DNA of 64,000 bases from Paraburkholderia largidicola (GTDB taxonomy: Bacteria > Pseudomonadota > Gammaproteobacteria > Burkholderiales > Burkholderiaceae): positions 744,001-808,000 of the forward strand of contig NZ_AP023176.1 in NCBI RefSeq assembly GCF_013426895.1. Direction: 5' to 3'. A program made the position numbers and the translations under genes. The notes beneath the pieces are model-generated. The model had not been told where the DNA came from and searched no databases. It saw nothing but the letters and a program-made list of their open reading frames with translations. Shown here one piece after another: positions 25,762-45,737 of the stretch. Within the stretch, counting starts at the first letter, position 1; the number at the start of each line of letters is the position of its first letter.

Positions 25762-25794
25762 GGCTCGGCATGTCGTGACATGACATGTCGAGCC
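25762..25794 (+). promoter_or_regulatory. Leader hairpin upstream of the formylglutamate amidohydrolase paralogue
   Basis: Two 13-base arms (25762-25774 and 25782-25794) pair completely in plus-strand RNA, including one G-U pair, around the loop GTGACAT. On the minus strand that pair would be a C-A mismatch, so the structure favours a plus-strand transcript. It ends 27 bases before the start codon at 25822. Confidence 0.45.
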
Positions 25795-25821
25795 AGCCGA
25801 TGCGAACTGAGGGTACTCCAC

Positions 25822-27756: not shown

Positions 27757-28419
27757 CTAGGGGTTCGTGGAAGCGGAACTGCGTGTGTTGCGCTTCCAGA
27801 TCTGGTTCGTCGCGTTGTCGATGAAGCCGTGGAACACGTCGAGCACTTCGTCGATCGAAATGATCGCGGCCACGCGATGCTCGATCCACAGTCCGTGCAC
27901 GAGGCCCATCGCCTGGATCGCGTAAATCGTCGCCATCGTCGGGTCGCAGCCGGCCTGCCTGAGGTCGTGGATGAAGTTCGAGCGCAGCCGCCGCGAGAAG
28001 GCGGCGCACAGGCGCTGCACTTCCTCGTCGTGCGCGGATGAACTCCACATGTGCGGCCACACGTTGGCGACGCCGGGGCTCATCACCTCGTCGCTGAAGC
28101 ACATGTCGGCCGTGAACTTCATGCGCGCGACGGGATCGGCGATGCCTCTGCGTCCCGCCGTCAACTGCTCGCGCACGCGCCAGATCAGATAGACGAAGGT
28201 CTTGTAGACAAGGTTGCCCTTGTTGTCGAAGTGATGGTGAACGAGGCCGACCGATACGCCCGCGTATTCGCTCACCTTGCGGATGGTCAGGTTCTCGAGT
28301 CCAACCTGGCCGACGACTTCCAGTGTCGAATCGATCAGACGCAGACGCATCCCGTCGTACTGGGCGGGATCGTCCTTGCGCATCTCAGGCATCGCTTCGC
28401 GCGCCTTTTCTCCTTGCAT
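27757..28419 (-). CDS. TetR-family regulator, BetI-like
   Basis: 220 residues. The N-terminal HTH is LRLIDSTLEVVGQVGLENLT, IRKVSEYAGVSVGLVHHHFD and NKGNLVYKTF, closest in style to BetI, the choline-responsive repressor. The C-terminal ligand domain has MWSSSAHDEEVQRLCAAFSR and IDEVLDVFHGFIDNATNQIW. The start MQGEKAREAMPEM is preferred because GGAAG lies six bases upstream. It is divergent from the pruA-ABC-putA operon. Three TGAAC-N4-GTTCA sites lie in the gap, so autoregulation and repression of that operon are likely. The ligand may be a betaine-like or quaternary amine compound. Confidence 0.85.
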   Translation of the reverse strand: MQGEKAREAMPEMRKDDPAQYDGMRLRLIDSTLEVVGQVGLENLTIRKVSEYAGVSVGLVHHHFDNKGNLVYKTFVYLIWRVREQLTAGRRGIADPVARMKFTADMCFSDEVMSPGVANVWPHMWSSSAHDEEVQRLCAAFSRRLRSNFIHDLRQAGCDPTMATIYAIQAMGLVHGLWIEHRVAAIISIDEVLDVFHGFIDNATNQIWKRNTRSSASTNP

Positions 28420-28515
28420 GTGCACTTCCATTCGGTGGTGGGATGAGTCGCCACGCTGGCTTTTCCGGCGCTGCGTCCGGCAGCTTACATGGTACTCGGG
28501 GCTCGCAATAAATCC

Positions 28516-28529
28516 TGAACAAACGTTCA
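28516..28529. promoter_or_regulatory. TetR/BetI-type operator 1
   Basis: TGAACAAACGTTCA, a TGAAC-N4-GTTCA palindrome 97 bases upstream of the tetR start codon. First of three such sites in the 606-base gap between tetR and pruA. Confidence 0.65.
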
Positions 28530-28571
28530 CTGGCAGTTTCAGTTTCCTTCAGCCCGCTTGGTCATTCATAT

Positions 28572-29025: not shown

Positions 29026-30636
29026 GTGATTTCAGGCCCACAATTTCCGTTGCCGGCAAATGAGCCCGAGGTGCATTTCGGGCAAGGTACGAAGGCAGCA
29101 GCGGCGCTGAGCAAGGCGCTCGAGCAACGCGACGTCGTCGAGATTCCGACGGTGATCGGTGGCAAGCGGTACTTCTCGAACGACGTCGTCGAAGTTCGCG
29201 CGCCGCACGACACGCAGCGTCTGCTGGCCCGCATCCATCGTCCGACGCAGGCGCAGATCGCCGAAGCCATCGCCAGCTCCGCGTCGGTCGCGAAAGACTG
29301 GGCCTCGTTGACGCACGCGAGCCGCGCGACGATTCTTCATCGCGCCGCGGAGATCGTCGCGACGCGTTCGCGGATCAGGATCAACGCGGCAACCATGCTC
29401 GGCCAGAGCAAGACGATCGATCAGGCCGAACCCGACAGCGCGTGCGAACTGATCGATTTTCTGCGCTTCAACGCCTACAACGCGCAGCGCGTGTACGCCG
29501 AGCAGCCGATGTCCGTCCCGACTGCTGTGAACCGCGCCGACTGGCGGCCGCTGGAAGGCTTCGTCTATGCCGTCTCACCGTTCAACTTCACGGCGATCGG
29601 CGCGAACCTGACGACGGCGCCCGCGATCATGGGCAACACAGTGCTGTGGAAGCCGTCGGAAAAGTCGGCGCTCGCGAATTACATCTTCTTCGAAGCGCTC
29701 GAAGAAGCCGGCTTGCCGCCCGGCGTCATCAACTTCGTACCCGGCGACGCCGAGCTGACGACGCGTGTGGCGATGTCGTCGCCGGATCTGGCGGGTATCC
29801 ACTTCACGGGTTCCTCGTCGGTTTTCCAGTCGCTGTGGAAGGGCGTCGCGTCGAAGGTCGACAGCTTCCGCACGATTCCGCGCCTCGTCGGCGAGACGGG
29901 CGGCAAGGATTTCGTGCTTGCGCATGCATCGGCGAATGCGTCGGAAGTCGCGATTGCGCTGATTCGCGGCGCGTTCGAGTACCAGGGGCAGAAGTGCAGT
30001 GCGGCGTCGCGCGCCTATCTTCCGCGCAGTCTGTGGACGGCCGTCAGTCAGGAACTGCGCGACCGTCTCGCCACGTTGAAAGTGGGCGATGTCGCCGATC
30101 CCGCCACGTTCATGGGCGCGGTGATTTCGCAGGCGTCGCATCAGAAGCTGAGCCGCGCGCTCGATGCTGCGAAGGACGATCCCGCCGTCAAGGTCGTCGC
30201 CGGCGGCAAGACGTGGTCGGAGCCCGGCTATTTCGTCGAGCCCACTGTTCTCCAGGTCACCGATCCGAAGCACGCGCTGATGAAGGAAGAACTGTTCGGC
30301 CCGGTGCTGTCCGTCTTCGTCTACGAAGACAGCGCGTGGCAGGAAACGCTCGGACTGATCGACGCCACGAGCCCCTACGCGCTGACGGGTTCTGTCTTCA
30401 GCACCGACCGCTTCGCCTTGCATGAGGCCGAGCGCGTGCTGATCAATGCGGCAGGCAATCTGTACCTGAACGACAAGCCGACGGGCGCGATGATCGGGCA
30501 GCAGCCGTTCGGCGGCGGCCGCGCGAGCGGGACGAACGACAAGGCGGGTTCGTATCTGAACCTGCTGCGCTGGGCGTCGCCGCGCGTCGTCAAGGAAACG
30601 TATCTGCCGCCGCGCGACTGGCAGTTCGGCGCGTAA
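29026..30636 (+). CDS. pruA: L-glutamate gamma-semialdehyde (P5C) dehydrogenase
   Basis: 536 residues, the length and style of group 1 P5C dehydrogenases. It oxidises glutamate semialdehyde to glutamate with NAD. The catalytic residues are complete: Asn in SPFNFTAIGANL, E290 in LVGETGGKDF and C324 in YQGQKCSAASRAYLP. The C-terminal block IGQQPFGGGRASGTNDKAGS is diagnostic. GTG 29026 is chosen because AAAGGAG lies five bases upstream. It is the first gene of an operon that also encodes PutA, whose own dehydrogenase domain has lost these residues (see 35097), so this enzyme probably does the second step of proline oxidation here. Confidence 0.92.
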   Translation: MISGPQFPLPANEPEVHFGQGTKAAAALSKALEQRDVVEIPTVIGGKRYFSNDVVEVRAPHDTQRLLARIHRPTQAQIAEAIASSASVAKDWASLTHASRATILHRAAEIVATRSRIRINAATMLGQSKTIDQAEPDSACELIDFLRFNAYNAQRVYAEQPMSVPTAVNRADWRPLEGFVYAVSPFNFTAIGANLTTAPAIMGNTVLWKPSEKSALANYIFFEALEEAGLPPGVINFVPGDAELTTRVAMSSPDLAGIHFTGSSSVFQSLWKGVASKVDSFRTIPRLVGETGGKDFVLAHASANASEVAIALIRGAFEYQGQKCSAASRAYLPRSLWTAVSQELRDRLATLKVGDVADPATFMGAVISQASHQKLSRALDAAKDDPAVKVVAGGKTWSEPGYFVEPTVLQVTDPKHALMKEELFGPVLSVFVYEDSAWQETLGLIDATSPYALTGSVFSTDRFALHEAERVLINAAGNLYLNDKPTGAMIGQQPFGGGRASGTNDKAGSYLNLLRWASPRVVKETYLPPRDWQFGA

Positions 30637-31744: not shown

Positions 31745-31802
31745 TGTCAGTCAGGTAAAGCCTCACTGATTTTCTAGACCATTTATCGACGGAGTGAAGC
31801 AG

Positions 31803-32867
31803 ATGAACCCGAAATACGCTTTAGGAATCCTTATCGCATGTGGGTGCGTGAGCACGGCGGCATCGGCGGCTCAGGTGACGTTCACGTCGTGGGGCGGCGC
31901 GTGGCAGGACGCGCAGGAGAGCACGGCCGCGAAGCCGTTCGCGCAGCAGGCGGGGGTCCAGCTCAAGACGGACACCTACAACGGCGGCATCGCGCAGGTC
32001 CGCAGCCAGGTGCAAACCAGCAATGTCACGTGGGACGTCGTGGACATGCAGCTGGCCGACGCGATCCGAGCCTGCGACGAGGGCTTGCTCGAGAAGGTGA
32101 ATCCCGCCACGCTCGCACCGGGCAAGGATGGCACGCCCGCAAAGAGCGATTTCATTGCGGGCGGCCTGTCGGAGTGCCTGGTGGGCAGCATCGCGTGGTC
32201 CACGCTCATCGCCTACAACACCGACAAGTTCAAGGGACATGAGCCGACGAAGATCGCCGACTTCTTCGACCTGAAGAAATACCCCGGCAAGCGCGGTCTG
32301 CGCAAGTCGCCCGAAGGCGCGCTGGAATGGGCGCTGCTCGCCGACGGCGTGCCGCCCGCCGATGTCTACAAGACGCTGTCCACGCCCGCAGGATTGAATC
32401 GCGCGTTCAGGAAGCTCGACACGATCAAGTCGTCGATCGTCTGGTGGGAGACGGGCGCCCAGCCGGCACAGCTTCTCGCGGATGGCGAAGTGACGATGAG
32501 CAGCGCCTACAACGGCCGCATCTACAGCGCGATGATCACCGACAAAAAGCCGTTCGGCTTCCTGTGGGATGGCCAGGTGAAGAACATCGAAGGCTACGCG
32601 ATCGTGAAGGGCTCGAAGAACCTGAAGGCCGCGCAGGACTTCGTGCGTTACGCGACGCAAGCCGATGTACTTGCGAAGCTCGCGCCGCTGACGGCTTATG
32701 GTCCTGCCCGCAAGTCGTCGATTCCGCTGGTCGACGCCAAGGTCTCGCCCTATCTGCCGACGGCACCCGCCAACCAGAAAGGCGCGATCGATGAAGACAC
32801 GGCGTTCTGGGCCGACCATTCGGACGACCTGAACCAGAAGTTCGCGGTCTGGCTGAGCCAGAAGTAA
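31803..32867 (+). CDS. ABC substrate-binding protein, polyamine (PotD) type
   Basis: 354 residues with a Sec signal peptide (MNPKYALGILIACGCVSTA, cleavage near ASAAQ). The mature start VTFTSWGGAWQDAQ and the later IVWWETGAQPAQLLADGEV and SAYNGRIYSAM are typical of the PotD/extracellular solute-binding family 1 group. This family binds polyamines, and relatives bind other small cationic or zwitterionic compounds. The putA/pruA context suggests a proline-like or betaine ligand. Confidence 0.88.
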   Translation: MNPKYALGILIACGCVSTAASAAQVTFTSWGGAWQDAQESTAAKPFAQQAGVQLKTDTYNGGIAQVRSQVQTSNVTWDVVDMQLADAIRACDEGLLEKVNPATLAPGKDGTPAKSDFIAGGLSECLVGSIAWSTLIAYNTDKFKGHEPTKIADFFDLKKYPGKRGLRKSPEGALEWALLADGVPPADVYKTLSTPAGLNRAFRKLDTIKSSIVWWETGAQPAQLLADGEVTMSSAYNGRIYSAMITDKKPFGFLWDGQVKNIEGYAIVKGSKNLKAAQDFVRYATQADVLAKLAPLTAYGPARKSSIPLVDAKVSPYLPTAPANQKGAIDEDTAFWADHSDDLNQKFAVWLSQK

Positions 32868-32918: not shown

Positions 32919-34202
32919 ATGATGATTCTTCCCACTGATATTGCCGTACCAGCAGCAGGCGAGCCGGAGCCGAGTCATATCGGCGATTCGAAAAGCCTCA
33001 AGTCGAAACTGCGCAGCGCGGAGCGCGCCGAGCGCACCCGGGCGATGCTGTTGATCGCGCCGCTGCTGGCCTTCCTTCTCGTCACCTTTCTGGTTCCGAT
33101 CGGCAGCCTGTTGATGAAGAGCTTCCGCGACCCGACTATTTCTCAGGAGATGCCCGCCACGGCAGCGCTGCTTCGCGAATGGAACCCCGCTGCCGGAAAG
33201 CTCCCCGGCGAGCATGTCTATGACGCGTTCGGCAAGGATCTGCTCGCCGCGAAGGCCAGTGAGGGCGTGAGCCGCGTGGCGTCGCGCCTCAACTACGACG
33301 AAGCGGGCATGCGCAGTCTCATCATGAAGACGGCGCGCCGTCTCGGCGACAGCGACACGGGGACATGGCATCAACGCCTGTCGGCCATCGATCCGCGCTG
33401 GGACGACATCGGCGCGTGGTCCACGCTCAAGTACGCATCGTCGCCGTGGACACTCGGCTATTACCTGAAGGCATTCGATTTCAAACGCGACAGCGACGGT
33501 TCGATCGTCCGTCAGGCACCCGGCGAGCGGCTGTATGTCGATGTGTTCGTGCGCACCGCATGGGTGAGTCTTGCCGTGAGCGCGCTGTGTCTGCTGTTCG
33601 GATATCCCGTCGCCTACTTTCTGGCGAACATCCCCGCGCGCTACAGCAACCTGTTCATGATCATGGTGCTGTTGCCGTTCTGGACGTCCATTCTGGTTCG
33701 AACCACGGCGTGGGTCGTCGTCCTGCAGACCAACGGCGTGCTCAACGATCTCTTCATCCACCTGGGTCTCACGAAATCAGGCTTTGCGCTGATCTACAAC
33801 CGCTTCGGCGTGCTGGTGGCGATGACGCACATCCTCTTGCCCTACGCGATTCTGTCGTTGTACGCGGTGATGAAAGGCGTGCCGAACATCTACATGAAAG
33901 CAGCGCGCTCGCTCGGCGCGGGCCCGATTCTGTCCTTCTTTCAGGCCTACTTTCCGCAGACGCTGCCGGGCGTGGGCGCAGCCGGCATGCTGACGTTCAT
34001 TCTCGCCGTTGGCTACTACATCACGCCCGCTATCGTCGGCGGGCCGGATGATCAACTCGCGAGCTACTACATCGCGAATCATGTGAACGCGACGCTGAAC
34101 TGGGGGCTGGCCAGCGCGCTCGCCTCCATTCTGCTGGCGGGCGTGCTGCTCGTCTATGCGATCTTCGTCCGGATGACGGGCGGCGGTGTGAAACTGGGGT
34201 AA
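32919..34202 (+). CDS. ABC permease, PotB type, with long periplasmic insert
   Basis: 427 residues. After a 45-residue polar start and a first helix (MLLIAPLLAFLLVTFLVPIG) there is an insert of about 140 residues before the second helix (VSLAVSALCLLFGYPVAYFL), longer than E. coli PotB. The EAA-type loop is KAARSLGAGPILSFFQAYFP. The start is weakly supported. It forms the membrane channel with the next gene. Confidence 0.88.
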   Translation: MMILPTDIAVPAAGEPEPSHIGDSKSLKSKLRSAERAERTRAMLLIAPLLAFLLVTFLVPIGSLLMKSFRDPTISQEMPATAALLREWNPAAGKLPGEHVYDAFGKDLLAAKASEGVSRVASRLNYDEAGMRSLIMKTARRLGDSDTGTWHQRLSAIDPRWDDIGAWSTLKYASSPWTLGYYLKAFDFKRDSDGSIVRQAPGERLYVDVFVRTAWVSLAVSALCLLFGYPVAYFLANIPARYSNLFMIMVLLPFWTSILVRTTAWVVVLQTNGVLNDLFIHLGLTKSGFALIYNRFGVLVAMTHILLPYAILSLYAVMKGVPNIYMKAARSLGAGPILSFFQAYFPQTLPGVGAAGMLTFILAVGYYITPAIVGGPDDQLASYYIANHVNATLNWGLASALASILLAGVLLVYAIFVRMTGGGVKLG

Positions 34203-34206
34203 CGCC

Positions 34207-35040
34207 ATGTTCAACTTTCCCGCATACGTTACGGTCTGGGGACGTCTCGGCCGGTTCGTTCACGTCGGCGTGTCGCTGGCCGTGCTGCTGTTCCTCGTTT
34301 CACCCGTGCTCGTGGTGATGCCGCTGTCGTTCAACTCGCAGCCGTACTTCACCTATCCGATGCAGGGTTTGAGTCTTCGCTGGTATCACGACTTCATCAA
34401 CAGCCCCGACTGGATGCTCGCGCTCAAGAACACGATGATCGTCGGCATCGTGTCGACGCTCATCGCAACCGTGCTCGGCGTGACGGCTTCGCTGGGCCTG
34501 ATGCACCCGCGCCTGAAAGGGAAGGCGCTCATCACGGGCATTCTGGTTTCGCCGATGATCGTGCCGCTCATCATCACGGCCGTGGGCGTGTACTTCGCGT
34601 TCAGCCCACTCGGTCTCACGAATAGCCTGACGGGGCTGATTCTGGCGCACGCCGCGCTTGGCGTGCCGTTCGTGGTGGTGACTGTGACGGCGACGCTCGC
34701 CGGTTTCAACGAAACATTGTCGCGCGCCGGCCGCAGCCTGGGCGCGTCGCCCGTGCGCGTCTTCATGCAGGTGAAGCTTCCCATCATCGCGCCGGGCGTG
34801 GTGTCGGGCGCACTGTTCGCGTTCGCGACTTCGTTCGACGAAATCGTCGTCGCGCTCTTTCTGACGGGCACGGATCAGCGCACAGTGCCGCGGCAAATGT
34901 GGTCGGGCATCCGCGAACAGCTGAGTCCGACGATCCTCGCGGTGGCCACCGTGCTCGTCGTCATCTCGACGCTGCTGCTCATCACGCTGGAACTGTTGCG
35001 CCGCCGGTCCGAGCGTCTGCGTGGCGCCGCCGCGGCGTGA
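34207..35040 (+). CDS. ABC permease, PotC type
   Basis: 277 residues, about six helices. NETLSRAGRSLGASPVRVFM is the EAA loop that docks on the ATPase. It starts four bases after the stop of the PotB-type gene. It is the last importer gene before putA. Confidence 0.9.
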   Translation: MFNFPAYVTVWGRLGRFVHVGVSLAVLLFLVSPVLVVMPLSFNSQPYFTYPMQGLSLRWYHDFINSPDWMLALKNTMIVGIVSTLIATVLGVTASLGLMHPRLKGKALITGILVSPMIVPLIITAVGVYFAFSPLGLTNSLTGLILAHAALGVPFVVVTVTATLAGFNETLSRAGRSLGASPVRVFMQVKLPIIAPGVVSGALFAFATSFDEIVVALFLTGTDQRTVPRQMWSGIREQLSPTILAVATVLVVISTLLLITLELLRRRSERLRGAAAA

Positions 35041-35096: not shown

Positions 35097-38000
35097 ATGT
35101 TGTCGGAAATCCAAGCCATGCAGGCCGTCACGACGAACCTCGCCACGCTGCGCCAGCGCATCCGCGACGCAACGGCGTTGCCTGAAGAAGCGGTCGTTCA
35201 GCAATTGATGCAGCAGGCGCGTATGGATGCGCCGGCGCTTGCCGCGACGCAGGCGCTCGCCGGGCGTCTGGCGCAAGGCGTACGCGACGCGCGCATCGAT
35301 GCAGGCGGTGTCGATCTGCTGACGCAGGAGTTTTCGCTCGACAGCCGCGAAGGCATCGCACTGATGTGTCTCGCGGAAGCGATGCTCCGCATCCCCGATA
35401 CGGCGACCCGCAACCAGCTGATTCGCGACAAGATCGTCGATGCGGATTGGCGTGCGCACATTGGCAAGTCGCCGTCGCTGTTCGTCAATGCGACGGCGTG
35501 GGGACTGCTCGTCACGGGCAAGCTGCTGAAGCAGCCGGATGAGAACGCACTGGCGGAAGCACTGACGCGGGTGGTGAGAAAAGGCGGCGAAGCCGTCGTG
35601 CGGGCGGGCGTCGCCTACGCGATGCGGATGCTGGGCAAGCAGTTCGTCACGGGCCAGACCATCGAAGAAGCGATCGGCGTGGCAAAGGGCCGGGAATCGG
35701 GCGGTTACCGTTACTCATACGACATGCTGGGCGAGGCCGCGCTGACCGACGAGGACGCGCAGGCGTATTTCGAATCGTATCGCCATGCAATCGAAGCGAT
35801 CGGCAAGGACGCGAAGGGCAAGGGGCCGATCGACGGGCCTGGCGTCTCGGTGAAGATATCCGGGCTTCACCCGCGCTACGAACTGGCGCAGCGCGAGCGG
35901 GTTCTGATCGAGCTGTATCCGCGCCTCCTGCAACTGGCGCAACTCGCGAAGCAATATGGCATCGGCTTTCACCTCGACCAGGAAGAGTCCGCGCGATTCG
36001 ATCTGACGCTCGAAATGCTGGAGCGTCTGTGCATGGAGCCGACGCTGAAAGGCTGGAATGGCATCGGGATTTCGCTGCAGGCGTACCAGAAGCGCGGCTG
36101 GGCCGTGGCGGAATGGATCATCGCGCTGGCCCGCTCCACGGGGCGGCGCATCAATATCCGGCTGGTCAAGGGGGCTTACTGGGACACTGAAATCAAGCTC
36201 GCTCAAGACGCGGGCGCCGCCGGCTATCCCGTCTTCACCCGCAAGGTTCATTCGGACGTGAGCTACATCGCTTGCGCAAAGGCCTTGCTTGACGCGCCTG
36301 ACGCGATCTTTCCGCAATTTGCCACGCACAACGCCTTCACGGTTGCCGCCGTCCATACGCTGGCGGGGAACAAGGAATACGAATTCCAGTGTCTGCACGG
36401 GATGGGCGAAACGGTCTACGACCAGGTTGTCGGGCCCACGAAGCTCGGCCGTCCGTGCCGGATCTACGCACCCGTTGGACCGCATGCGACGCTGCTCGCT
36501 TACCTCGTGCGGCGGCTGCTCGAAAACGGCGCGAACTCTTCTTTCGTGAACCAGATCGTGGACCCGGCCGTCAGCATCGCGGATATCGTCGAAGACCCGG
36601 TTGCCAGGGCTGCGCGTACGGGCGGCAAACCGCATGCGGGTATCGTTTCGCCTCGCGGCGTGCTGCCGGGCCGGCTCAATGCCGCGCCCATGCAGTTTGC
36701 GGCGTCTTTCTCATTCGACAGGGCGGTTGCGGACATACGCGCGAATCGCATCGTGGCGCAGTCGATCGTGGCGGGCGCGGGCGAGCTTGCATCCGATGCG
36801 ACGGCGCTCGTCTACAGTGCGAGCGACGCATCGGAGGTCATCGGCAGTGTCGCGAGTTGCCGGATCGATGCCGTCGAGCAGGCATGCGCGGCGGCGTCGC
36901 AGGCTGTGACATCGTGGGGACGCACCGCGCCCGATACGCGCGCGGCGATGCTAGAAGACGTTGCGAACGCGCTCGAGAACAACGCCGAACGGCTCGGCGC
37001 ACTGCTCGTGCTGGAAAACGGCGCGACGCTCGCCGAGGCCGTCGACGAAGTCAGAAGTTCAGTGAATCTGTGCCGCCTGTACGCGTATCAGATCTCGTCC
37101 GATACGCGGCTCGCCAGTGCCATGCCGCTTGGCGTCGTAGCGAGCATCACGCCCGCGTCGTCGCCCCTGACGACTTTCGTTGGGCATATTGCGGCCGCGC
37201 TCGCAGCAGGAAATGTCGTTGTGGCGAAGCCATCGTCGGACGCGTCGCTGATTGCCTATGAAGCGGCGCGACTGTTCATGCAATGCGGCATGCCCGAGGG
37301 TGTGTTGCAGATCGTGCTGGGCGATGGCGACGCGGTTGGACGGGCGCTGCTCTCCGATCGGCGCGTAGCAGGAGTGCTTTTTTCGGGTTCACGCGAAACG
37401 GGCCGTGCTGTTTCGATGCAGCTTGCAGCGTTGCCGAAAGCGCCGAAATTGATCGGCGTGTTCGGCGGCGTCAATTCGATGATCGTGGACAGCTCCGCAT
37501 TGCCCGAGCAGGTGATATCCGACGCGATTGTCTCCGCTTTCAGGAACGCCGGACAATCGGCATCGTCGCTGCGTATTTTGTGTCTGCAGGATTCGACAGC
37601 GGACAAGGTGCTGCGCATGCTCAACGGCATGTTGAGCGAGCGCATGACGGGCAACCCGCTGAGCCCCGCAACGGATATCGGACCTGTGGCCACGCGCCGC
37701 GCGCGAGACCGCGCCGAAGCCTACCTTGCACAACTGAAGCAGCGCGGAATGACGGTGGTACGCGGCAAGCTTTCGGGCGATGGCAGCAAGGGAAATCATG
37801 TCGCGCCTGCCATCGTGGATATCGGCGATGTGCGCGCGTTGAGTTCGATCGATCCTGCCGTCGACGGTCCGATCGTTCATGTGCTGCGATACAGGACAGG
37901 CGAGATGGACGCGTTGCTGCGCGCGCTGAATGAACGCGGTTGCGGCGTGCAAGGCTTGCACACGCGCATCAACGAGGCGGCGGGCAAGCTGTTGTCGCTA

Positions 38001-38864
38001 ACCCGGGCCAACAGTGTCTGCATCAATCGCGCGATGCACAGCGCGTTCGTGGGCATGCAACCGTTCGGCGGCGTCGATGCGAGCGGTACGGGTCCGATGG
38101 CAGGCGGTCCGCTGATGCTCGCCGGTCTCACGCGCCAGGCCGCGTTGTCGTTCGAAGCCGCAAGCGGTCCGTTCGCTGCCACGGCGACCGCAGTGAGCGA
38201 AAAGTTCTTCGAGTTTCCGGTCGAAGGTTGGGACGGAAAGCGGATCAGCCGCCAGACGGCTGCGGCGAAAGCCTGGTCGGCACAACTTCATCACCTCGAC
38301 TCGCTGTTCAACCTTGCTTCGTCGCGCGGCGCCAATGCAAAGGATCTCACTACGCTCGGCGATTTCAGAAGCCGCGCGAGTGAACTGCTTGCGGCAATGC
38401 GACCGCTTGGTTTGCCTGCACTGACGGGCGAAGAGAATACGGTTGAGTTGTTGCCTCGCGGACAGGTGTTGTGCGCCGCGGATTCCGTTTCGGCCGTGAT
38501 CGCGCAAGCCAGCTTCGCAGCCGCCTTCGGCAATGAAGTCGTATTGCTGAAATCGCAGATCTCGGACGAAATTGCCAGCACGCTGGGTGCCGGATGCCGG
38601 GTGATCGACGCCGCAGATGCCGCGCGGATTCTGCGTGGCGACGTTCCCGGCGTGCGTCCCGACGTGGTGCTGACGACACCCGGCCAGCACGGTCTCGACA
38701 ACATCCGCAGACTGGCCGCCGAGGCGATGATTGCAGTCGTGATGGCGGACGATACGGGCGGCTACGACTGGACGCAACTGGTACGCGAACGCGTCACGAC
38801 CGTGAACGCGAGTGCCGCCGGCGGCAATACGCAACTGATGGTGATGAGTGAAGATGCGTTCTGA
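35097..38864 (+). CDS. putA: PutA: proline dehydrogenase fused to a degenerate P5C dehydrogenase domain
   Basis: 1255 residues. There is no ribbon-helix-helix at the N-terminus, so this is not a DNA-binding PutA. The FAD-dependent proline dehydrogenase domain (about 190-480) looks intact: VSVKISGLHPRYE near 253, RLVKGAYWDTEIKLAQDAG near 355, FATHNAF near 407 and YLVRRLLENGANSSFVNQI near 470. The aldehyde dehydrogenase domain (about 575-1060) keeps the fold but lacks catalysis. WNFP is ASSP (N to S688), AETGG is GVFGG (E to V788) and GQRCSALR is GQSASSLR (C to A822). A C-terminal domain follows. I infer that it makes P5C and hands it to PruA from the same operon. Confidence 0.92.
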   Translation: MLSEIQAMQAVTTNLATLRQRIRDATALPEEAVVQQLMQQARMDAPALAATQALAGRLAQGVRDARIDAGGVDLLTQEFSLDSREGIALMCLAEAMLRIPDTATRNQLIRDKIVDADWRAHIGKSPSLFVNATAWGLLVTGKLLKQPDENALAEALTRVVRKGGEAVVRAGVAYAMRMLGKQFVTGQTIEEAIGVAKGRESGGYRYSYDMLGEAALTDEDAQAYFESYRHAIEAIGKDAKGKGPIDGPGVSVKISGLHPRYELAQRERVLIELYPRLLQLAQLAKQYGIGFHLDQEESARFDLTLEMLERLCMEPTLKGWNGIGISLQAYQKRGWAVAEWIIALARSTGRRINIRLVKGAYWDTEIKLAQDAGAAGYPVFTRKVHSDVSYIACAKALLDAPDAIFPQFATHNAFTVAAVHTLAGNKEYEFQCLHGMGETVYDQVVGPTKLGRPCRIYAPVGPHATLLAYLVRRLLENGANSSFVNQIVDPAVSIADIVEDPVARAARTGGKPHAGIVSPRGVLPGRLNAAPMQFAASFSFDRAVADIRANRIVAQSIVAGAGELASDATALVYSASDASEVIGSVASCRIDAVEQACAAASQAVTSWGRTAPDTRAAMLEDVANALENNAERLGALLVLENGATLAEAVDEVRSSVNLCRLYAYQISSDTRLASAMPLGVVASITPASSPLTTFVGHIAAALAAGNVVVAKPSSDASLIAYEAARLFMQCGMPEGVLQIVLGDGDAVGRALLSDRRVAGVLFSGSRETGRAVSMQLAALPKAPKLIGVFGGVNSMIVDSSALPEQVISDAIVSAFRNAGQSASSLRILCLQDSTADKVLRMLNGMLSERMTGNPLSPATDIGPVATRRARDRAEAYLAQLKQRGMTVVRGKLSGDGSKGNHVAPAIVDIGDVRALSSIDPAVDGPIVHVLRYRTGEMDALLRALNERGCGVQGLHTRINEAAGKLLSLTRANSVCINRAMHSAFVGMQPFGGVDASGTGPMAGGPLMLAGLTRQAALSFEAASGPFAATATAVSEKFFEFPVEGWDGKRISRQTAAAKAWSAQLHHLDSLFNLASSRGANAKDLTTLGDFRSRASELLAAMRPLGLPALTGEENTVELLPRGQVLCAADSVSAVIAQASFAAAFGNEVVLLKSQISDEIASTLGAGCRVIDAADAARILRGDVPGVRPDVVLTTPGQHGLDNIRRLAAEAMIAVVMADDTGGYDWTQLVRERVTTVNASAAGGNTQLMVMSEDAF

Positions 38865-38888: not shown

Positions 38889-39284
38889 ATGAGCGTCGCC
38901 GATTCGCGGAAACCACTTGCGGGATTGAAGGCCGCGCCCGGCCGGCGATGGTACGCCATCGCCGCAAGCGACTGGCAGCCAATGAAAATCGGCGATACCG
39001 TGCTGCCCGGCTTCTTCTCGATACCCGTCGCCGACGACGAGCGCGGCAGATGGACCAGCTACTGGATGCGCGTCGAACCCGGTGCGCGCTCGCCCGTGCA
39101 TCGCCATGACACGACGGAACTCATCATGGTGCTCGACGGTGTCTTCACTGACGACGACGGCAGCGACTATCTGCCCGGTCACACCGTGACCTGGCCAGCG
39201 GGTTCGACACACAGCACGACTTCCGCGAGCGGTTGTACCGTTCTCGTCGTCGCTCACGCCGGTTCCAGCATCGCGTCTTCGTGA
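38889..39284 (+). CDS. Small cupin-domain protein
   Basis: 131 residues. One cupin barrel with metal-site motif RSPVHRHDTTELIMVLDGVF and the second motif LPGHTVTWPAGSTHSTTS, like ChrR-type cupins. It follows putA by 24 bases, probably in the same operon. The role is unknown; small cupins in such operons are often ligand sensors or isomerases. Confidence 0.8.
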   Translation: MSVADSRKPLAGLKAAPGRRWYAIAASDWQPMKIGDTVLPGFFSIPVADDERGRWTSYWMRVEPGARSPVHRHDTTELIMVLDGVFTDDDGSDYLPGHTVTWPAGSTHSTTSASGCTVLVVAHAGSSIASS

Positions 39285-39350: not shown

Positions 39351-40169
39351 ATGGAGTTCATCTTGACCGATACGGCCTTCCGGTTTCGACAAGGCTCGAT
39401 ACCGCTGCTCATTTCCATACCGCATCTCGGAACCGACATCCCGGTCGATGTGCGCGACCAGCTGACAGACGTCGCGCATCAGGTTGCCGATACGGACTGG
39501 CACCTCGACCGGCTATACGGATTTGCGCAACGGCTCGGCGCATCGGTGCTGGGCGCGCGCTATTCGCGCTACGTGATCGACCTGAACCGGCCATCGACGG
39601 GGGAGAGCCTGTATCCCGGCCAGACGACCACGGGCCTTTGCCCGACGGAAACGTTCAGAGGCGAGCCGTTGTACCGCGATAGCGGCGGACCGGGCGCCGA
39701 CGAAATCAGCCGACGACTCGATACCTACTGGCATCCCTATCACGCGAAGCTTCGCGAAGAACTGGACCGGCTCAAGGCTAAATTCGGAACCGTGCTGATA
39801 TGGGAGGCGCATTCGATCGCCAGCGTGTTGCCACGGCTTTTCGACGGCAAATTGCCGGACCTGAACGTCGGGACGAATTCAAGGCAAAGCTGCGATACGC
39901 GCATCGTCGATGCGATTGAAGCGGTGCTGAAGCAGCAGAGGACGTACACGTCGGTGATCGACGGGCGGTTCAAGGGCGGTCACATCACGCGTGCATACGG
40001 CAATCCCGAAGCGGGGATTCACGCCGTCCAGCTGGAAATGTGCCAGTCGGTGTACATGAACGAATCTTCGCCATTCGACTATCGTCCCGAACTTGCCGCG
40101 CAGGCCAGTTCCGTCGTCGAGCGGATGATCTCCGCGGCTTTGGATGCGGCCAGGTCGATACGTACCTGA
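39351..40169 (+). CDS. hutG: N-formylglutamate amidohydrolase
   Basis: 272 residues with all HutG motifs: ISIPHLGTDIP, DTDWHLDRLY, VIDLNRPSTGESLY, LIWEAHSIASVLPRLF, FKGGHITRAYGNP and VQLEMCQSVYM. The reaction is N-formylglutamate plus water to glutamate and formate, with a divalent metal. ATG 39351 is used. TTG 39363, with the ATGGAG stretch just upstream, would give TDTAFRF and is a fair alternative. No other histidine-degradation enzyme is nearby except HutD, so N-formylglutamate may arise here from another route, or the enzyme may act on a related formyl amino acid. Confidence 0.9.
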   Translation: MEFILTDTAFRFRQGSIPLLISIPHLGTDIPVDVRDQLTDVAHQVADTDWHLDRLYGFAQRLGASVLGARYSRYVIDLNRPSTGESLYPGQTTTGLCPTETFRGEPLYRDSGGPGADEISRRLDTYWHPYHAKLREELDRLKAKFGTVLIWEAHSIASVLPRLFDGKLPDLNVGTNSRQSCDTRIVDAIEAVLKQQRTYTSVIDGRFKGGHITRAYGNPEAGIHAVQLEMCQSVYMNESSPFDYRPELAAQASSVVERMISAALDAARSIRT

Positions 40170-40313: not shown

Positions 40314-41243
40314 TCACACCGAGTCCGTCAACTTGGGCACGGCTTCGAAGAGGTCGCCGACCAGTCCATAGTCAGCGACGCCGAAGATGGGCGCATCGGC
40401 ATCCTTGTTGATCGCGACGATCACTTTCGAGTCCTTCATGCCAGCAAGGTGCTGGATCGCCCCCGAAATGCCGACCGCGATGTAAAGCTCGGGCGCGACG
40501 ATCTTGCCCGTCTGTCCCACTTGCAAGTCGTTGGGTGCGTAGCCCGAGTCGACGGCGGCGCGCGACGCGCCGATCGCAGCGCCCAGCTTTTCGGCGAGCG
40601 GATCGAGGATTGCGAAGTTTTCCGCGCTGCCGAGGCCGCGTCCGCCGGAGACGACCACGCGTGCGGCCGTCAGGTCCGGGCGGTCGCTCGCGGCGATTTC
40701 GCGTCGGATGAAGGTCGACAGGCGGGTGTCGGCGACGGCAGGCGCGTTCTCCACGGTGGCGCTGCCGCCTTCGGGTGCGGCTGCTTCGAACGCCGTCGTG
40801 CGGATCGTCGCGACCTTCACGCGGTCGGCGGTTTGGACCGTGGCGATCGCATTGCCCGCATAGATGGGGCGCTGGAAGGTATCGTCTGAATCGATGGCGA
40901 TCACATCCGAGATCTGCGACGCGTCGAGCTTTGCGGCGACGCGTGGCGCGATGTTCTTCCCGGCAGCCGTCGCGGGGAAAAGGATATGCGTGTAGTCGTT
41001 TGCGAGCGCGACGATCTGCGCGGCAAGGTTTTCTGCAAGTCCGTTCGCGAAGTGCGGTGCGTCGACGAGGATCACTTTGTCCACGCCCGCCATCCTGCTT
41101 GCCGCGTCGGCAACGGCTTTTGCACCGCTGCCCGCCACGAGAAGATGAACGCCGTTCGCGAGCCGTTGCGCGGCCGAAACCGTGTGCAACGTGGAGACTT
41201 TCAGTTGCACGTTGTCATGTTCGGCAATAACCAGAGTCGTCAT
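40314..41243 (-). CDS. etfA: Electron transfer flavoprotein, alpha subunit
   Basis: 309 residues. The C-terminal FAD domain carries [38 protein letters not shown] and [20 protein letters not shown]. It holds the FAD that carries electrons from a dehydrogenase to ETF-quinone oxidoreductase. Its ATG follows the etfB stop with no gap. The operon also encodes an FAD oxidoreductase, the likely electron donor. Length and motifs are those of standard (non-bifurcating) EtfA. Confidence 0.94.
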
Positions 41244-41993
41244 TCAGATCACCTTCGCTTCAGATTTCAGTTTTGCGACGAGCGCCGCGACGTCGGGCAC
41301 GATCGCGCCGGCCTGGCGGACAGGCGGCTCGACGACCTTCAGCGTTTTGAGGCGCGGCGCGGGATCGACGCCGAGGTCCGCTGGCTTCACGGTTTCGATC
41401 GGCTTCTTCTTCGCCTTCATGATGTTCGGCAGGGTCACGTAGCGCGGTTCGTTCAGACGCAGGTCCGTGGTCACGATGGCGGGCAGGCGGAGCGAGAGGA
41501 CCTCGAGGCCGCCGTCGACTTCACGCGTCACGGTCGCCGTGTCGCCGTTGATGTCGATGTGGCTCGCGAAGGTAGCCTGCGGCCAGTCCAGCAGTGCGGC
41601 CAGCAGTTGTCCCGTCTGGCCCGCGTCGTCGTCGATTGCCTGCTTGCCGAGAATGACCAGTTGCGGCTGTTCCCTGTCGATCACGGCCTTCAGTAGCTTG
41701 GCGACAGCGAGCGGTTGCAGTTCGACATCCGTTTCGACCAGGATGCCGCGATCCGCGCCGATGGCGAGCGCGGTCCGCAAGGTTTCCTGGCTTTGCGCAA
41801 CGCCGCACGACACCGCGATGACTTCCGTGGCCTGGCCAGTTTCTTTCAGACGGGTTGCTGCTTCCGTTGCGATTTCGTCGAACGGGTTCATCGACATCTT
41901 GACGTTGCCGATATCGACGCCGCTCTGGTCGGACTTCACGCGAACCTTCACGTTGTAGTCGACGACGCGTTTCACTGCCGTAATCACTTTCAT
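41244..41993 (-). CDS. etfB: Electron transfer flavoprotein, beta subunit
   Basis: 249 residues. [38 protein letters not shown] and [20 protein letters not shown] are EtfB hallmarks, the last forming the AMP site. The recognition-loop region ([20 protein letters not shown]) is of the usual type. It lies directly upstream of etfA and 18 bases downstream of hutD. Confidence 0.94.
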
Positions 41994-42011
41994 CTTTTCA
42001 TCCTCAGGAAT

Positions 42012-42611
42012 TCAATCGTTCGTCCGGAGTGCGGCCGGTTCGATGGTCACGAGCACGGGCAAGCCGTTCGATCCTTGCGAGTCGCTGGCGTGGTCATCGG
42101 GCACGAGCCGCAGCGGCCGGCTCAGGTGCCTTGCGACGAGCACATGACCGGGCGCGACAGTGCCGCATGTCATCGTTCCCGGTTCCGAGAAGCTGCAGCC
42201 GCTGCCGGGCGCCACGACGACCACAGCGCAGTCGGGCTGCACGATCACCGGGGCGACGAGTGTGCGCACTCGCGTCCGATAGTGGCCGCTCGCGCTCATC
42301 ACGTTGAGCGCGGTGACGGGTCCGTTGACGAGGCTCGCCATCCACGCCTGGTCGCCGTCGTATTCGACCGCCTCGAACGGCTTGAGCAGGACCACCGACG
42401 CATCGTGTCGAAGCGCCACGCCGCCGCCACGAAGCACGAGCGAGGTGCGCGAGACGCCTGCGAAACGCGAGTAGGGTCCATCCCGCTCGATTTCCGCCAT
42501 GCTGACGCGCCACGCGTCGTCTTGCGCTGCGAAGGTCCGCGTGACGCCTGCACCGTTGCGCCAAGGTTCAAAGGGTATCGATGCGATCGCGCGAATGTCG
42601 ATGGCCGACAT
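42012..42611 (-). CDS. hutD: HutD/Ves family cupin protein
   Basis: 199 residues. FEPWRNGAGVTRTFAAQDD and WRVSMAEIERDGPYSRFAGV followed by SRTSLVLRGGGVAL are the HutD signature. HutD is a double-stranded beta-helix protein normally found in histidine-utilisation operons, where it is thought to act as a governor that binds a pathway intermediate. Here it lies between an FAD oxidoreductase and the ETF genes, which together with hutG hints at N-formylglutamate or a similar metabolite in this pathway. Confidence 0.88.
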   Translation of the reverse strand: MSAIDIRAIASIPFEPWRNGAGVTRTFAAQDDAWRVSMAEIERDGPYSRFAGVSRTSLVLRGGGVALRHDASVVLLKPFEAVEYDGDQAWMASLVNGPVTALNVMSASGHYRTRVRTLVAPVIVQPDCAVVVVAPGSGCSFSEPGTMTCGTVAPGHVLVARHLSRPLRLVPDDHASDSQGSNGLPVLVTIEPAALRTND

Positions 42612-42621
42612 GACCCGTCCG

Positions 42622-43809
42622 TCAGGACACGGCGCCGAGGCCGTATTTGCCCGTCAGCAGATCGCCCGTCGCGAAGCGCTCGATCGAATACGGCTTTAGC
42701 GACACGTCGGTGGCAAGACCGAGCGCTTCCTGCGCGAGCACGCGGCCGACCGTCGGCGAAAGCTTGAAGCCGTGACCCGAGAAACCGTAACCGACGACGA
42801 GACCTTCGATGCCCGGCAGCTTGCCCAGCACCGGGTTCCAGTCGGGCGTCACGTCGTACACGCCCGTCCACGAGGATGCGATGCCGGCCGTTTCGTAGGC
42901 GGGGAAGCGCTCCGCGACCTGCGCGCCGACTTCGACCACATAGTCCATCGGAATGTCGCCTTGCTCGGTCTCGGCGCTGTTCAGCTTTTCGCCGACGACG
43001 CCTTCGCTGACGAGCATCTGGTTGCCGCCGTAGCTGCGGTAATACAGCATGCCCGGCGATGCGAGATCCTTGAAGACGGGCATGGAGAAGGTGTATCTGG
43101 CCGCATCGCATTCGAGTGCGAGCACGGCGTGCCGCTCGGGCATGACGGGGAGATCGTGGCCCGTCCAGCCGGAAAGCTCGGGCGTCCAGATGTTCTGCGT
43201 GCTGATGACCATCGACGTCGCGAAGTCACCGATGCTGGTCGACACGCCCACTACCTTGTGGTTCTCGAACAGGATTCTGTTCACGGATGCGTTCTCGCGT
43301 ATCGTCACGCCGCCACGGCGCGCTGCGCGCGCAAAGCTGGTGGCGACCAGATAGGCGTCGGCGAAGCCCGCCTCGGGCTCGTAGCCGATCAGCGCGGCAT
43401 CGTCGAACTGCGCAATGGGCAGCAGTTCCTTAGCCTGGCGGGTGTTGAGCAGTTCGAGCGGGATGCCTTGCTCTTTCTGCTGATCCAGCGACGCGCGCAA
43501 GGGTTCCAGCTTGTCGCCTTCGCCTGCCACGATCATGTAGCCGCACTTCACCAGACCGCAGGACGCTTCGTCGTCGCCGAGGTACGAGGCGAAATTGTTG
43601 AATACGTCCCAGGACTTGCGGGCAAGCTCGACATTCTCCTTGACGGAGTAGTGCGTCCGCAAAATCCCCGACGACTGGGATGTCGTTCCCGCGCCTATGG
43701 TGCCGCGGTCGAGCACGAGCACATTTTTCGCGCCCAGTTTCGCCAGCTGGAAAGCGACCGAACTGCCGATCACGCCAGCGCCAATCACAACAACGTCATA
43801 TGTATTCAC
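42622..43809 (-). CDS. FAD-dependent oxidoreductase, DAO family (sarcosine/dimethylglycine dehydrogenase-like)
   Basis: 395 residues. The N-terminal Rossmann motif is YDVVVIGAGVIGSSVAFQLA, then LDRGTIGAGTTSQSSGILRT. The C-terminal part GLVVGYGFSGHGFKLSPTVG is typical of the DAO family that includes SoxB and N-methyl amino acid dehydrogenases. GTG 43807-43809 with AAGGGG upstream is the start; the long upstream open frame is not protein-like. The order is this gene, hutD, etfB, etfA, so ETF is the probable electron acceptor. I infer oxidation of a secondary or N-methyl amine such as N-methylproline, feeding PutA, but other amino acids are possible. Confidence 0.88.
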   Translation of the reverse strand: MNTYDVVVIGAGVIGSSVAFQLAKLGAKNVLVLDRGTIGAGTTSQSSGILRTHYSVKENVELARKSWDVFNNFASYLGDDEASCGLVKCGYMIVAGEGDKLEPLRASLDQQKEQGIPLELLNTRQAKELLPIAQFDDAALIGYEPEAGFADAYLVATSFARAARRGGVTIRENASVNRILFENHKVVGVSTSIGDFATSMVISTQNIWTPELSGWTGHDLPVMPERHAVLALECDAARYTFSMPVFKDLASPGMLYYRSYGGNQMLVSEGVVGEKLNSAETEQGDIPMDYVVEVGAQVAERFPAYETAGIASSWTGVYDVTPDWNPVLGKLPGIEGLVVGYGFSGHGFKLSPTVGRVLAQEALGLATDVSLKPYSIERFATGDLLTGKYGLGAVS

Positions 43810-44063
43810 GGGTCCGTTCCCCTTCTTGAGCAAGGCATGGACGCAGTGTGAAGCGCCGGGAGCGTGCGCGCGCCAATATAAGCGGCGGCGATTTTTAGCA
43901 GAAGCGGGCGCGCGATGCCTGGGCGCGCCGGGCCGCCGGGCGGCGTCTGCACGCGGCAAACTCAAGCGGTGATTGAGTGGAGCATCAGCGATGCTTATGT
44001 CTCGCGAATGCGCGAACTGGCCGGCATACGATGGTCTCAACGAACCCGGACACGGCTTTTCTC

Positions 44064-45737
44064 ATGAACACACAGACTCTCATCGAGCAATACGGACCTC
44101 GTGAATCCATGGAGTACGACGTCGTCATCGTCGGCGGTGGACCGGCGGGCTTGTCGGCGGCGATCCGGCTCAAACAGCTGGCGCACGAGCGAGGCGCCGA
44201 AGTCAGCGTGTGCGTGCTGGAGAAGGGCTCCGAAATCGGTGCGCATACGCTTTCGGGCGCCGTCATGGACCCACGCGCGTTGCAGGAACTGCTGCCTGAC
44301 TGGCGCGAACGCGGCGCGCCGCTCGATGTGGCCGTGACGGAAGACCGCTTTCTGTTCCTGTCCGAACGCGGGGCGAAGCAGGTGCCTAACTGGCTTCTTC
44401 CCGATAACTTCAGGAATCACGGCAACTATGTCGTCAGTCTCGGTAACGTTACGCGCTGGCTCGGGCAACAGGCCGAGGAACTGGGCGTCGAGATCTTTGC
44501 CGGTTTCCCGGCGGCGGAAGTGCTGTACGGCGAGCGCGGCGAAGTGAAAGGCGTGGCGACGGGGAACATGGGAATCGGCAGGAACGGCGAACCGACGGAC
44601 AGCTTCCAGCCCGGCATGGAACTGCACGCGAAATACACGCTGTTTGCAGAAGGTGCGCGCGGCCACCTCGGCCGCCAACTGATGGAGCGCTTCAGTCTGT
44701 GCGAGGGCGTCGATCCGCAGGTCTATGGACTGGGCATCAAGGAGCTATGGGAGATCGATCCGAAGATGCACCAGCCGGGGCTCGTCATTCACACAGCGGG
44801 CTGGCCGCTGCAGAGCGACACCTACGGCGGCTCGTTTCTCTATCACCTCGATAACCATCAGGTCGTCGTCGGCTTCGTGGTGGGTCTCGGGTACACGAAC
44901 CCCTACCTGTCACCGTTCGAAGAGTTTCAGCGCTACAAGACGCATCCGGAAATCCGCAGGTTTCTGGAAGGCGGCAAGCGCGTGTCCTATGGCGCGCGAG
45001 CGATCGCAGCAGGCGGCTTGATGTCGCTGCCGAAGCTCGTGTTTCCCGGCGGCGCGCTGATCGGATGCGAGGCGGGCTTTCTCAACGCGTCGCGTATCAA
45101 GGGGAGCCACGCCGCCATCGCGACGGGAAAGATGGCCGCCGAGGCGGCCTTCGACGCGTTGCGCAGCGCACGCCGGAACGACGTGCTAGCCGCCTATCCC
45201 GAAGCGTTCGGGCGGTCCTGGCTCAAGGAAGAACTGCACCGTGCGCGCAATTTCAAGCAATGGATGAGCAAGGGGCTCTACACGGGGACGCTGATGGTCG
45301 GCGTCGAGCAGAAGCTGCTTGGCGGACGCGTGCCGTGGACCTTGCATCACCGTCATTCGGATCACGAAAGGCTGAAACACGCATCCCGATGCAAGGAGAT
45401 CGTCTATCCGAAGCCGGACGGCAAGCTGACTTTCGACCGGCTGTCTTCGGTGTTTCTGTCGAATACGAATCACGAAGAGAATCAGCCGGCGCATCTGACG
45501 CTTCGAGACGCATCGACGCCCGTTCGTGTGAACCTCGACAGGTTTGCCGGGCCGGAGACGCGCTTCTGTCCTGCGGGTGTGTATGAGTTTGCAGCGGATG
45601 CGGACGGCAGGACTTCGCTCGTCATCAATGCGCAGAACTGCGTGCATTGCAAGACGTGCGATATCAAAGATCCGACGCAGAACATCGTATGGGTCACGCC
45701 CGAGGGCGGCGGCGGGCCCAATTATCCGAACATGTGA
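44064..45737 (+). CDS. Electron transfer flavoprotein-ubiquinone oxidoreductase (ETF-QO)
   Basis: 557 residues. The FAD site is YDVVIVGGGPAGLSAAIRLK, then LEKGSEIGAHTLSGAVMDPR; FFLAEGARGHL-type motif is FAEGARGHLGRQL. The C-terminal 4Fe-4S cluster cysteines are in RFCPAGVYE and INAQNCVHCKTCDIKDPTQN. It passes ETF electrons to the quinone pool at the inner membrane. ATG 44064 is chosen by family length and the usual MNTQTLIEQYGPRESMEYD start; ATG 44031 is possible. It is divergent from the FAD oxidoreductase operon, and the 254-base gap should hold both promoters, none of which I can place firmly. Confidence 0.93.
   Translation: MNTQTLIEQYGPRESMEYDVVIVGGGPAGLSAAIRLKQLAHERGAEVSVCVLEKGSEIGAHTLSGAVMDPRALQELLPDWRERGAPLDVAVTEDRFLFLSERGAKQVPNWLLPDNFRNHGNYVVSLGNVTRWLGQQAEELGVEIFAGFPAAEVLYGERGEVKGVATGNMGIGRNGEPTDSFQPGMELHAKYTLFAEGARGHLGRQLMERFSLCEGVDPQVYGLGIKELWEIDPKMHQPGLVIHTAGWPLQSDTYGGSFLYHLDNHQVVVGFVVGLGYTNPYLSPFEEFQRYKTHPEIRRFLEGGKRVSYGARAIAAGGLMSLPKLVFPGGALIGCEAGFLNASRIKGSHAAIATGKMAAEAAFDALRSARRNDVLAAYPEAFGRSWLKEELHRARNFKQWMSKGLYTGTLMVGVEQKLLGGRVPWTLHHRHSDHERLKHASRCKEIVYPKPDGKLTFDRLSSVFLSNTNHEENQPAHLTLRDASTPVRVNLDRFAGPETRFCPAGVYEFAADADGRTSLVINAQNCVHCKTCDIKDPTQNIVWVTPEGGGGPNYPNM

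Follow-up and report, generated by a model that had tools for sequence, protein, structure and literature searches.

We analysed a window of 64,000 nucleotides, the whole stretch of Paraburkholderia largidicola DNA considered here (contig NZ_AP023176.1, positions 744,001 to 808,000), in which the gene at 35097..38864 encodes a PutA-like protein that appears to have kept only the first of its two activities. The proline dehydrogenase (PRODH) half should work, judging by its residues, and the Δ1-pyrroline-5-carboxylate (P5C) dehydrogenase domain is without its catalytic Cys, Glu and Asn, a loss shared by a whole family of related proteins, here called dead PutAs. We conclude that this is probably a one-step PutA, which makes P5C, keeps the dead aldehyde dehydrogenase half as a wall or lid of the PRODH-side cavity and leaves the P5C to PruA, a separate enzyme encoded in the same operon. 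The protein and its parts are as follows.

35097..38864, + strand: PutA-like protein of 1255 amino acids, type B layout without a ribbon-helix-helix (RHH) domain; intact PRODH, dead aldehyde dehydrogenase domain and C-terminal domain (open reading frame, Pfam, residue reading)
35307..36566, + strand: alpha domain and PRODH barrel, residues 71-490; no loss among the tested residues of substrate site, gate and tunnel
36777..38111, + strand: aldehyde dehydrogenase domain, residues 561-1005; predicted fold intact, without the catalytic and most of the tested NAD-site residues
37158..37160, + strand: S688, replacing the oxyanion-hole Asn (alignment, direct reading)
37458..37460, + strand: V788, replacing the general-base Glu (alignment, direct reading)
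37500..37556, + strand: tunnel-lining helix, residues 802-820 (824-842 in Sinorhizobium meliloti PutA), well conserved across the dead family
37560..37562, + strand: A822, replacing the catalytic Cys (alignment, direct reading)
38793..38846, + strand: conserved C-terminal tail, residues 1233-1250, containing NASAAGGNTQLM

The three replacements had been named in the initial annotation, and both direct reading (S688 in ITPASSPL, V788 in GVFGGVNS, A822 in GQSASSLR) and alignment to the solved S. meliloti PutA (5kf6) confirm them. No solved structure matches better by sequence than this PutA, and by predicted fold it is one of the top matches. The three positions align with its Asn707, Glu810 and Cys844, which the available text of PMC12398946 assigns to the oxyanion hole, to hydrolysis and to catalysis, respectively. 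We inferred the chain index of the structure to be 2 higher than the numbering of that paper, because the named residues then land on the correct letters. Additional losses are found at W706 (A687), F708 (S689) and R843 (S821), and the Glu and Phe of the EVFGP motif are replaced by A921 and D923; Lys711 of the KP motif is retained. Aldehyde dehydrogenases use this Trp, the Lys of the KP motif and the EVFGP residues to contact NAD. We consider P5C dehydrogenase catalysis by this protein very unlikely, as the initial annotation had proposed, because matching single changes abolish the activity in solved PutAs: Bradyrhizobium japonicum C792A is reported to show no glutamate semialdehyde dehydrogenase activity and wild-type PRODH activity (PMC5786444), and C844S to disable the P5C dehydrogenase of S. 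meliloti PutA (PMC12398946). The dead half is nevertheless predicted to fold like the aldehyde dehydrogenase domain of solved PutA. Its predicted fold and its residues agree with those of an aldehyde dehydrogenase pseudoenzyme, of putative inactivity.

The PRODH motifs had been described as conserved, and the residues tested here are all present (K253, E213, R300, L433, Y457, R472 and R473). They include the matches to the substrate and gate residues Lys265, Glu225, Leu449, Tyr473, Arg488 and Arg489 of S. meliloti PutA, from the list in the available part of PMC12398946. The PRODH N-terminal, Pro_dh-DNA_bdg, Pro_dh and Aldedh domains all score above the Pfam gathering score. A Pfam search did not find the RHH domain PF21775, so the protein is not a trifunctional (type C) PutA; with a C-terminal domain past the catalytic core and no RHH domain it has the layout of type B. 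The domain model TIGR01238 gives 397.3, below its cut-off of 485.2, whereas the bifunctional PutA model PRK11904 accepts the protein (1099.8 against a cut-off of 747), so automatic annotation may keep calling it bifunctional. In the plasmid collection, Paraburkholderia sp. 22B1P (99.4%) and P. largidicola F2 (99.3%) gave the closest records; the F2 record, from Physopelta gutta midgut crypts, annotates the protein as a trifunctional enzyme. Such bi- or trifunctional annotations appear to be contradicted by the residues.

The survey of the triple loss that had been suggested yielded 68 database clusters among the matches listed, which were the best 120 of 7945 relatives; as no protein search listed more than 120 of the up to 8000 proteins scored, dead PutAs of other origin beyond the matches listed would be missed. 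All 68 clusters are without the three catalytic residues, with none of Cys, Glu and Asn at its proper position, so none of them qualifies as a bifunctional PutA. The other PutA rows keep all three (148 of 148), and there are no intermediates. Likewise, in a redundant alignment of 300 rows (the query, 217 proteins and 82 loci) 175 rows have all three residues and 125 have none. Four members carry an Asn one position late (P0045, P0047, P0048 and P0049) and one a Cys one position early (P0040), in each case with the other two residues absent. A profile built from the most distant dead members scores the 68 at 1479 bits or more, and the next protein among the matches listed reaches 1384. Proteins added by two further searches were, among the matches listed, intact at the checked residues, except for P0121, which at 897 amino acids and with unrelated extra domains was excluded from the 68. 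In P0121, sugar-nucleotide epimerase-type domains are fused to a dead PutA half, perhaps through misassembly.

The dead family was found in Paraburkholderia, Caballeronia, Burkholderia, Trinickia, Pandoraea, Cupriavidus, Aromatoleum, Azohydromonas, Rhodoferax and Leeia, all of which we take to be betaproteobacteria. Within the genus Paraburkholderia, 14 of 144 genomes have a member. In 399 sampled genomes of the order, six proteins pass an E value of 1e-300, three of them dead (from our own genome and two Leeia-like ones) and three intact, and the 31 named loci from the genome contig collection comprise 24 dead, 6 intact and one too short for judging. A tree on the PRODH columns separates 16 dead rows (thinned) from 20 active ones by one branch with a support of 100/100. 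The dead group sits on a long stem; the long-branch flags fall on three active rows, L087, P0191 and P0185, which do not neighbour this group.

As the dead rows lie on one branch, several independent losses within the family are ruled out. A sequencing error or a single mutant is ruled out as well, with the same loss in P0002 (94% identity) and 66 more distant clusters, and so is a decaying pseudogene: the 14 genus members have no internal stop and the ratios of nonsynonymous to synonymous substitution rates (dN/dS) are well below 1. The Tyr of the RIYAPVG motif, which distinguishes hydroxyproline from proline, is retained in 68 of 68 clusters, ruling out a hydroxyproline specialisation through its loss. 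We found no report of a PutA family with a dead P5C dehydrogenase in the openly licensed literature. These proteins thus belong to the PutA family and fail the defining test of a bifunctional PutA; pseudoenzymes of the aldehyde dehydrogenase family as such are already known.

Ten close pairs, which share species, gave dN/dS values of 0.10-0.23 for the dead aldehyde dehydrogenase region and 0.12-0.26 for its C-terminal domain. The same pairs gave 0.00-0.055 for the PRODH region and 0.025-0.10 for PruA. For the aldehyde dehydrogenase region of intact PutAs, six comparable pairs gave 0.03-0.10; these are six of eight pairs, the two with G071 being omitted because that genome has two copies and unlike copies were compared. 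The dead domain is therefore under purifying selection, which is weaker than that on the active domain. Sequence entropy was calculated on thinned sets of 39 dead and 44 active proteins, and as these are unequal in depth we relied on the contrast within each set: from PRODH to the NAD-binding region the mean rises from 0.56 to 1.90 in the dead family and from 0.85 to 1.24 among the active proteins. Of the residues invariant in active PutAs, 109 of 128 in PRODH are kept in 90% of the dead proteins, against 19 of 70 and 44 of 92 in the two aldehyde dehydrogenase regions.

The constraint within the dead half is unevenly placed. Of its twelve-residue windows, the twelve best conserved begin at positions 793-800 and 1235-1238, corresponding to a strand plus the first half of the tunnel helix and to the C-terminal tail. 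The helix (824-842 in the S. meliloti numbering of PMC12398946) ranks 30 of 677 windows when taken whole, and GLHTRINE (953-960) is also highly conserved. Since the best-conserved stretches are the PRODH-side tunnel strand and helix and the C-terminal tail, a role of the dead half towards its own PRODH is indicated.

The dead PutA gene is part of an operon that is conserved from Paraburkholderia to Leeia; in the window, its genes follow each other at gaps of 4-66 bases.

27757..28530, - strand: TetR regulator with a BetI-type C-terminal domain, divergent from PruA
29026..30636, + strand: PruA, an ALDH4A1-like P5C dehydrogenase with Asn, Glu and Cys present; open frame from 28996, start at 29026 as annotated in the relative L121
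30665..31744, + strand: ABC transporter ATPase, PotA subfamily
31794..32867, + strand: substrate-binding protein; nearest solved chains labelled as polyamine, mannopine-type, GABA sensor and agropine binders
32919..34202, + strand: ABC permease, PotB/PotH-like
34207..35040, + strand: ABC permease, PotC-like
38889..39284, + strand: cupin protein after PutA, absent in some relatives
39351..40169, + strand: HutG-type N-formylglutamate deformylase; not seen adjoining PutA in Leeia L058 and Aromatoleum L080

PruA had been reported as the first gene of the operon, with its catalytic residues in place. This holds: read from 29026, the residues are N187, E290 and C324, and the protein passes the cut-off of the P5C dehydrogenase model TIGR01236. 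Two features go beyond the initial annotation, namely the four ABC transporter genes between PruA and PutA and a complete PutA elsewhere in the genome. The PotA, PotB and PotC genes are upstream of PutA in 24 of 24 named dead loci (L061-L084). PruA is inside the fetched flank in 22 of these, once on the opposite strand (L083), and was not seen in the flanks of L078 and L079; in G072, apparently the genome of L079, it lies ~11 kb upstream of PutA. Of the 24 loci, 5 have the binding-protein gene between PotA and PotB and 13 have it at another place in the flank; in 6 it was not seen there. Leeia L058 and L059 and Aromatoleum L080 keep PruA, PotA, PotB, PotC and PutA and gave no cupin or electron transfer flavoprotein (Etf) matches. 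The nearest solved sequences to the binding protein are labelled spermidine/putrescine-binding, MotA, polyamine, GABA sensor and agropine; the closest is 8jv1, for which no paper was found in the openly licensed literature. At an identity of at least 83%, PruA is present in 20 of the 144 genus genomes, comprising all 14 with a dead PutA and 6 without.

Our own genome (9.47 Mb, five contigs) has one other match with both PRODH and aldehyde dehydrogenase, at C1:3664366-3667407, where the encoded PutA has the RHH domain (PF21775) and all catalytic motifs. The search used the dead PutA protein as query, not a PRODH family model, and a small distant PRODH could escape it. An intact PutA is also present in the 12 genus genomes with dead PutA (of 14) whose second PutA was fetched and in both Leeia genomes. 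In G036, two PutA copies with identical scores were seen (C1:211851-214901 and C4:32114-35164). The divided PutA proposed in the initial annotation therefore stands in part: an intact PRODH and a complete PruA do share a conserved operon, but the genomes checked also encode an intact PutA.

In the one-step PutA that we favour, the PRODH half would oxidise proline, or a close analogue imported by the operon's ABC transporter, to P5C and pass the electrons on to the membrane quinone pool. The P5C would reach PruA mainly by diffusion and be converted to glutamate there. The dead half may be retained because its fold seals the cavity on the PRODH side and influences the turnover of FAD, the release of P5C or the association with the membrane. 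There would have been a single loss, affecting a copy of a bifunctional PutA of a betaproteobacterial ancestor whose operon had or gained PruA. For the PutA of Rhodobacter capsulatus, both aldehyde dehydrogenase activity and channelling are reported to benefit from the C-terminal domain, which is modelled near the PRODH helices (PMC5293562). By analogy, the dead half could plausibly support PRODH structurally, in line with the position of the conserved stretches.

Several points weigh against this interpretation. The dN/dS pairs are not independent, the entropy sets differ in depth, and the residues tested are limited to those from the literature or known motifs. Proline as the substrate is assumed from the PRODH residues. 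Sixteen positions are fixed in the dead family to a residue different from that of the active set. Several of these changes (A256G, A295Q, D299A and L301F) are next to K253, D294 and the tunnel roof, which would allow for another substrate or another way of handling it. As PruA is also present in six clusters without dead PutA, it is not tied to dead PutA alone. The interpretation also gives no reason for a second proline oxidiser beside an intact PutA.

According to the initial annotation, the dead domain could instead be a scaffold for PruA, itself of the aldehyde dehydrogenase fold, with P5C passing between the proteins unreleased. The conserved operon and the predicted fold would fit such docking, and separate PRODH and P5C dehydrogenase enzymes of Mycobacterium tuberculosis are reported to channel, although according to the same source a stable PruB/PruA complex was not demonstrable in earlier work (PMC10537722). 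However, no trace of docking was seen in two sequence tests, both of them weak. No PruA position has fully separate residues between the 14 clusters with and the 6 without dead PutA, and dead-domain distances over 25 loci gave a partial r of 0.17 with PruA against 0.33 with PotA (0.14 with PotB and -0.28 with the protein's own PRODH). The two genes are ~11 kb apart in G072, and the best-conserved stretches of the dead half face PRODH, so we regard docking as rather unlikely. A related idea is that a fused two-step enzyme was split again: the dead half would serve as passage and landing site that hands P5C to PruA, and the tunnel would now be one side of an inter-protein channel. The clade-fixed changes I293L, A295Q, D299A, L301F, S304T and D306E cluster at the loop that roofs the tunnel docking site, where R300 is kept, and could be a retuning of the P5C docking site (293-306) for the hand-over. 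We give this a small chance.

A changed substrate appears doubtful. The enzyme would oxidise a proline analogue, for instance an N-substituted proline or an opine-like compound taken up through the transporter, and the P5C half would have been lost as unsuited to the product. This could account for the sixteen clade-fixed changes, thirteen of them within residues 96-486, and would suit a binding protein whose closest chains carry the labels of GABA, opine and polyamine binders; the neighbouring DAO, EtfAB, ETF-QO, HutD and HutG genes suggest a wider amine pathway. Nevertheless, the tested proline contacts, including the RIYAPVG Tyr, are kept in 68 of 68 clusters, PruA scores above the TIGR01236 cut-off, and HutG and Etf genes do not adjoin PutA in the Leeia and Aromatoleum loci (L059 has a HutG-like match ~8 kb upstream). 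It is highly improbable that the eroded pocket is a pseudoenzyme sensor of proline, P5C or glutamate that tunes PRODH. The glutamate semialdehyde site of active PutA is reported to bind proline (PMC5786444), and Lys711 and Ser823 are retained in 60 and 47 of the 68 clusters, but the Arg before the Cys, the first Phe of the aromatic box and the Ser of the anchor loop are replaced or differ between members of the clade, which speaks against a single conserved ligand.

Further genes adjoin the operon. At 40314-45737 we found EtfA, EtfB, a HutD-like protein (42012-42611), a sarcosine-oxidase-like DAO flavoprotein, whose best solved match is 1y56 chain B, and ETF-QO; together they look like an ETF-linked amine oxidation module. 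Two genes of the N-formylglutamate amidohydrolase family flank the operon (25780-26670 and 39351-40169), and only the second passes the HutG model cut-off. In the six genus genomes with close PruA relatives and no dead PutA (L112-L117), FGase, LysR and EtfAB genes are near PruA in all six and DAO in five, the sixth stretch ending at EtfB. Four of the six have a complete transporter of the same class, with ATPase and permeases ~36-42% identical. L112 also has an FMN-dependent dehydrogenase, a GlcD-like FAD oxidase and a DHDPS-family gene, and L115 an AMP-binding ligase.

PutA is a well-studied case of channelling through a tunnel, and its activities, separated elsewhere by mutagenesis, are here separated in a natural family. 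The family makes it possible to study how the aldehyde dehydrogenase half and the C-terminal domain serve PRODH once catalysis is gone, and whether channelling can shift from within one protein to between two. Bi- and trifunctional PutA names would be wrong on the second activity for the whole clade and would mislead metabolic models that count a full proline-to-glutamate step.

Dead PutA resembles the bifunctional type B PutAs of S. meliloti (5kf6) and R. capsulatus (PMC5293562) in domain order, PRODH residues, aldehyde dehydrogenase fold and C-terminal domain; it differs from them by the missing catalytic Cys, Glu and Asn, the eroded NAD site and the operon-encoded partner PruA. With the type C trifunctional PutA of the same genome it shares 48% identity over residues 16-1017, but that protein has the RHH domain and all catalytic motifs. 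M. tuberculosis PruB, which has no aldehyde dehydrogenase domain, is monofunctional, whereas dead PutA keeps its dead half. PRODH and P5C dehydrogenase activity are nonetheless likewise reported on separate proteins in PruB and PruA (PMC10537722). The human pseudoenzyme ALDH16A1 is described as another member of the aldehyde dehydrogenase family without catalytic residues; it has no PRODH fusion and is itself reported to act as a protein-interaction partner (PMC10650815). Finally, the laboratory variants C792A, with active PRODH, and C844S likewise have the catalytic Cys replaced by Ala or Ser, but these were made by mutagenesis, whereas the changes in dead PutA are natural, multiple and clade-wide.

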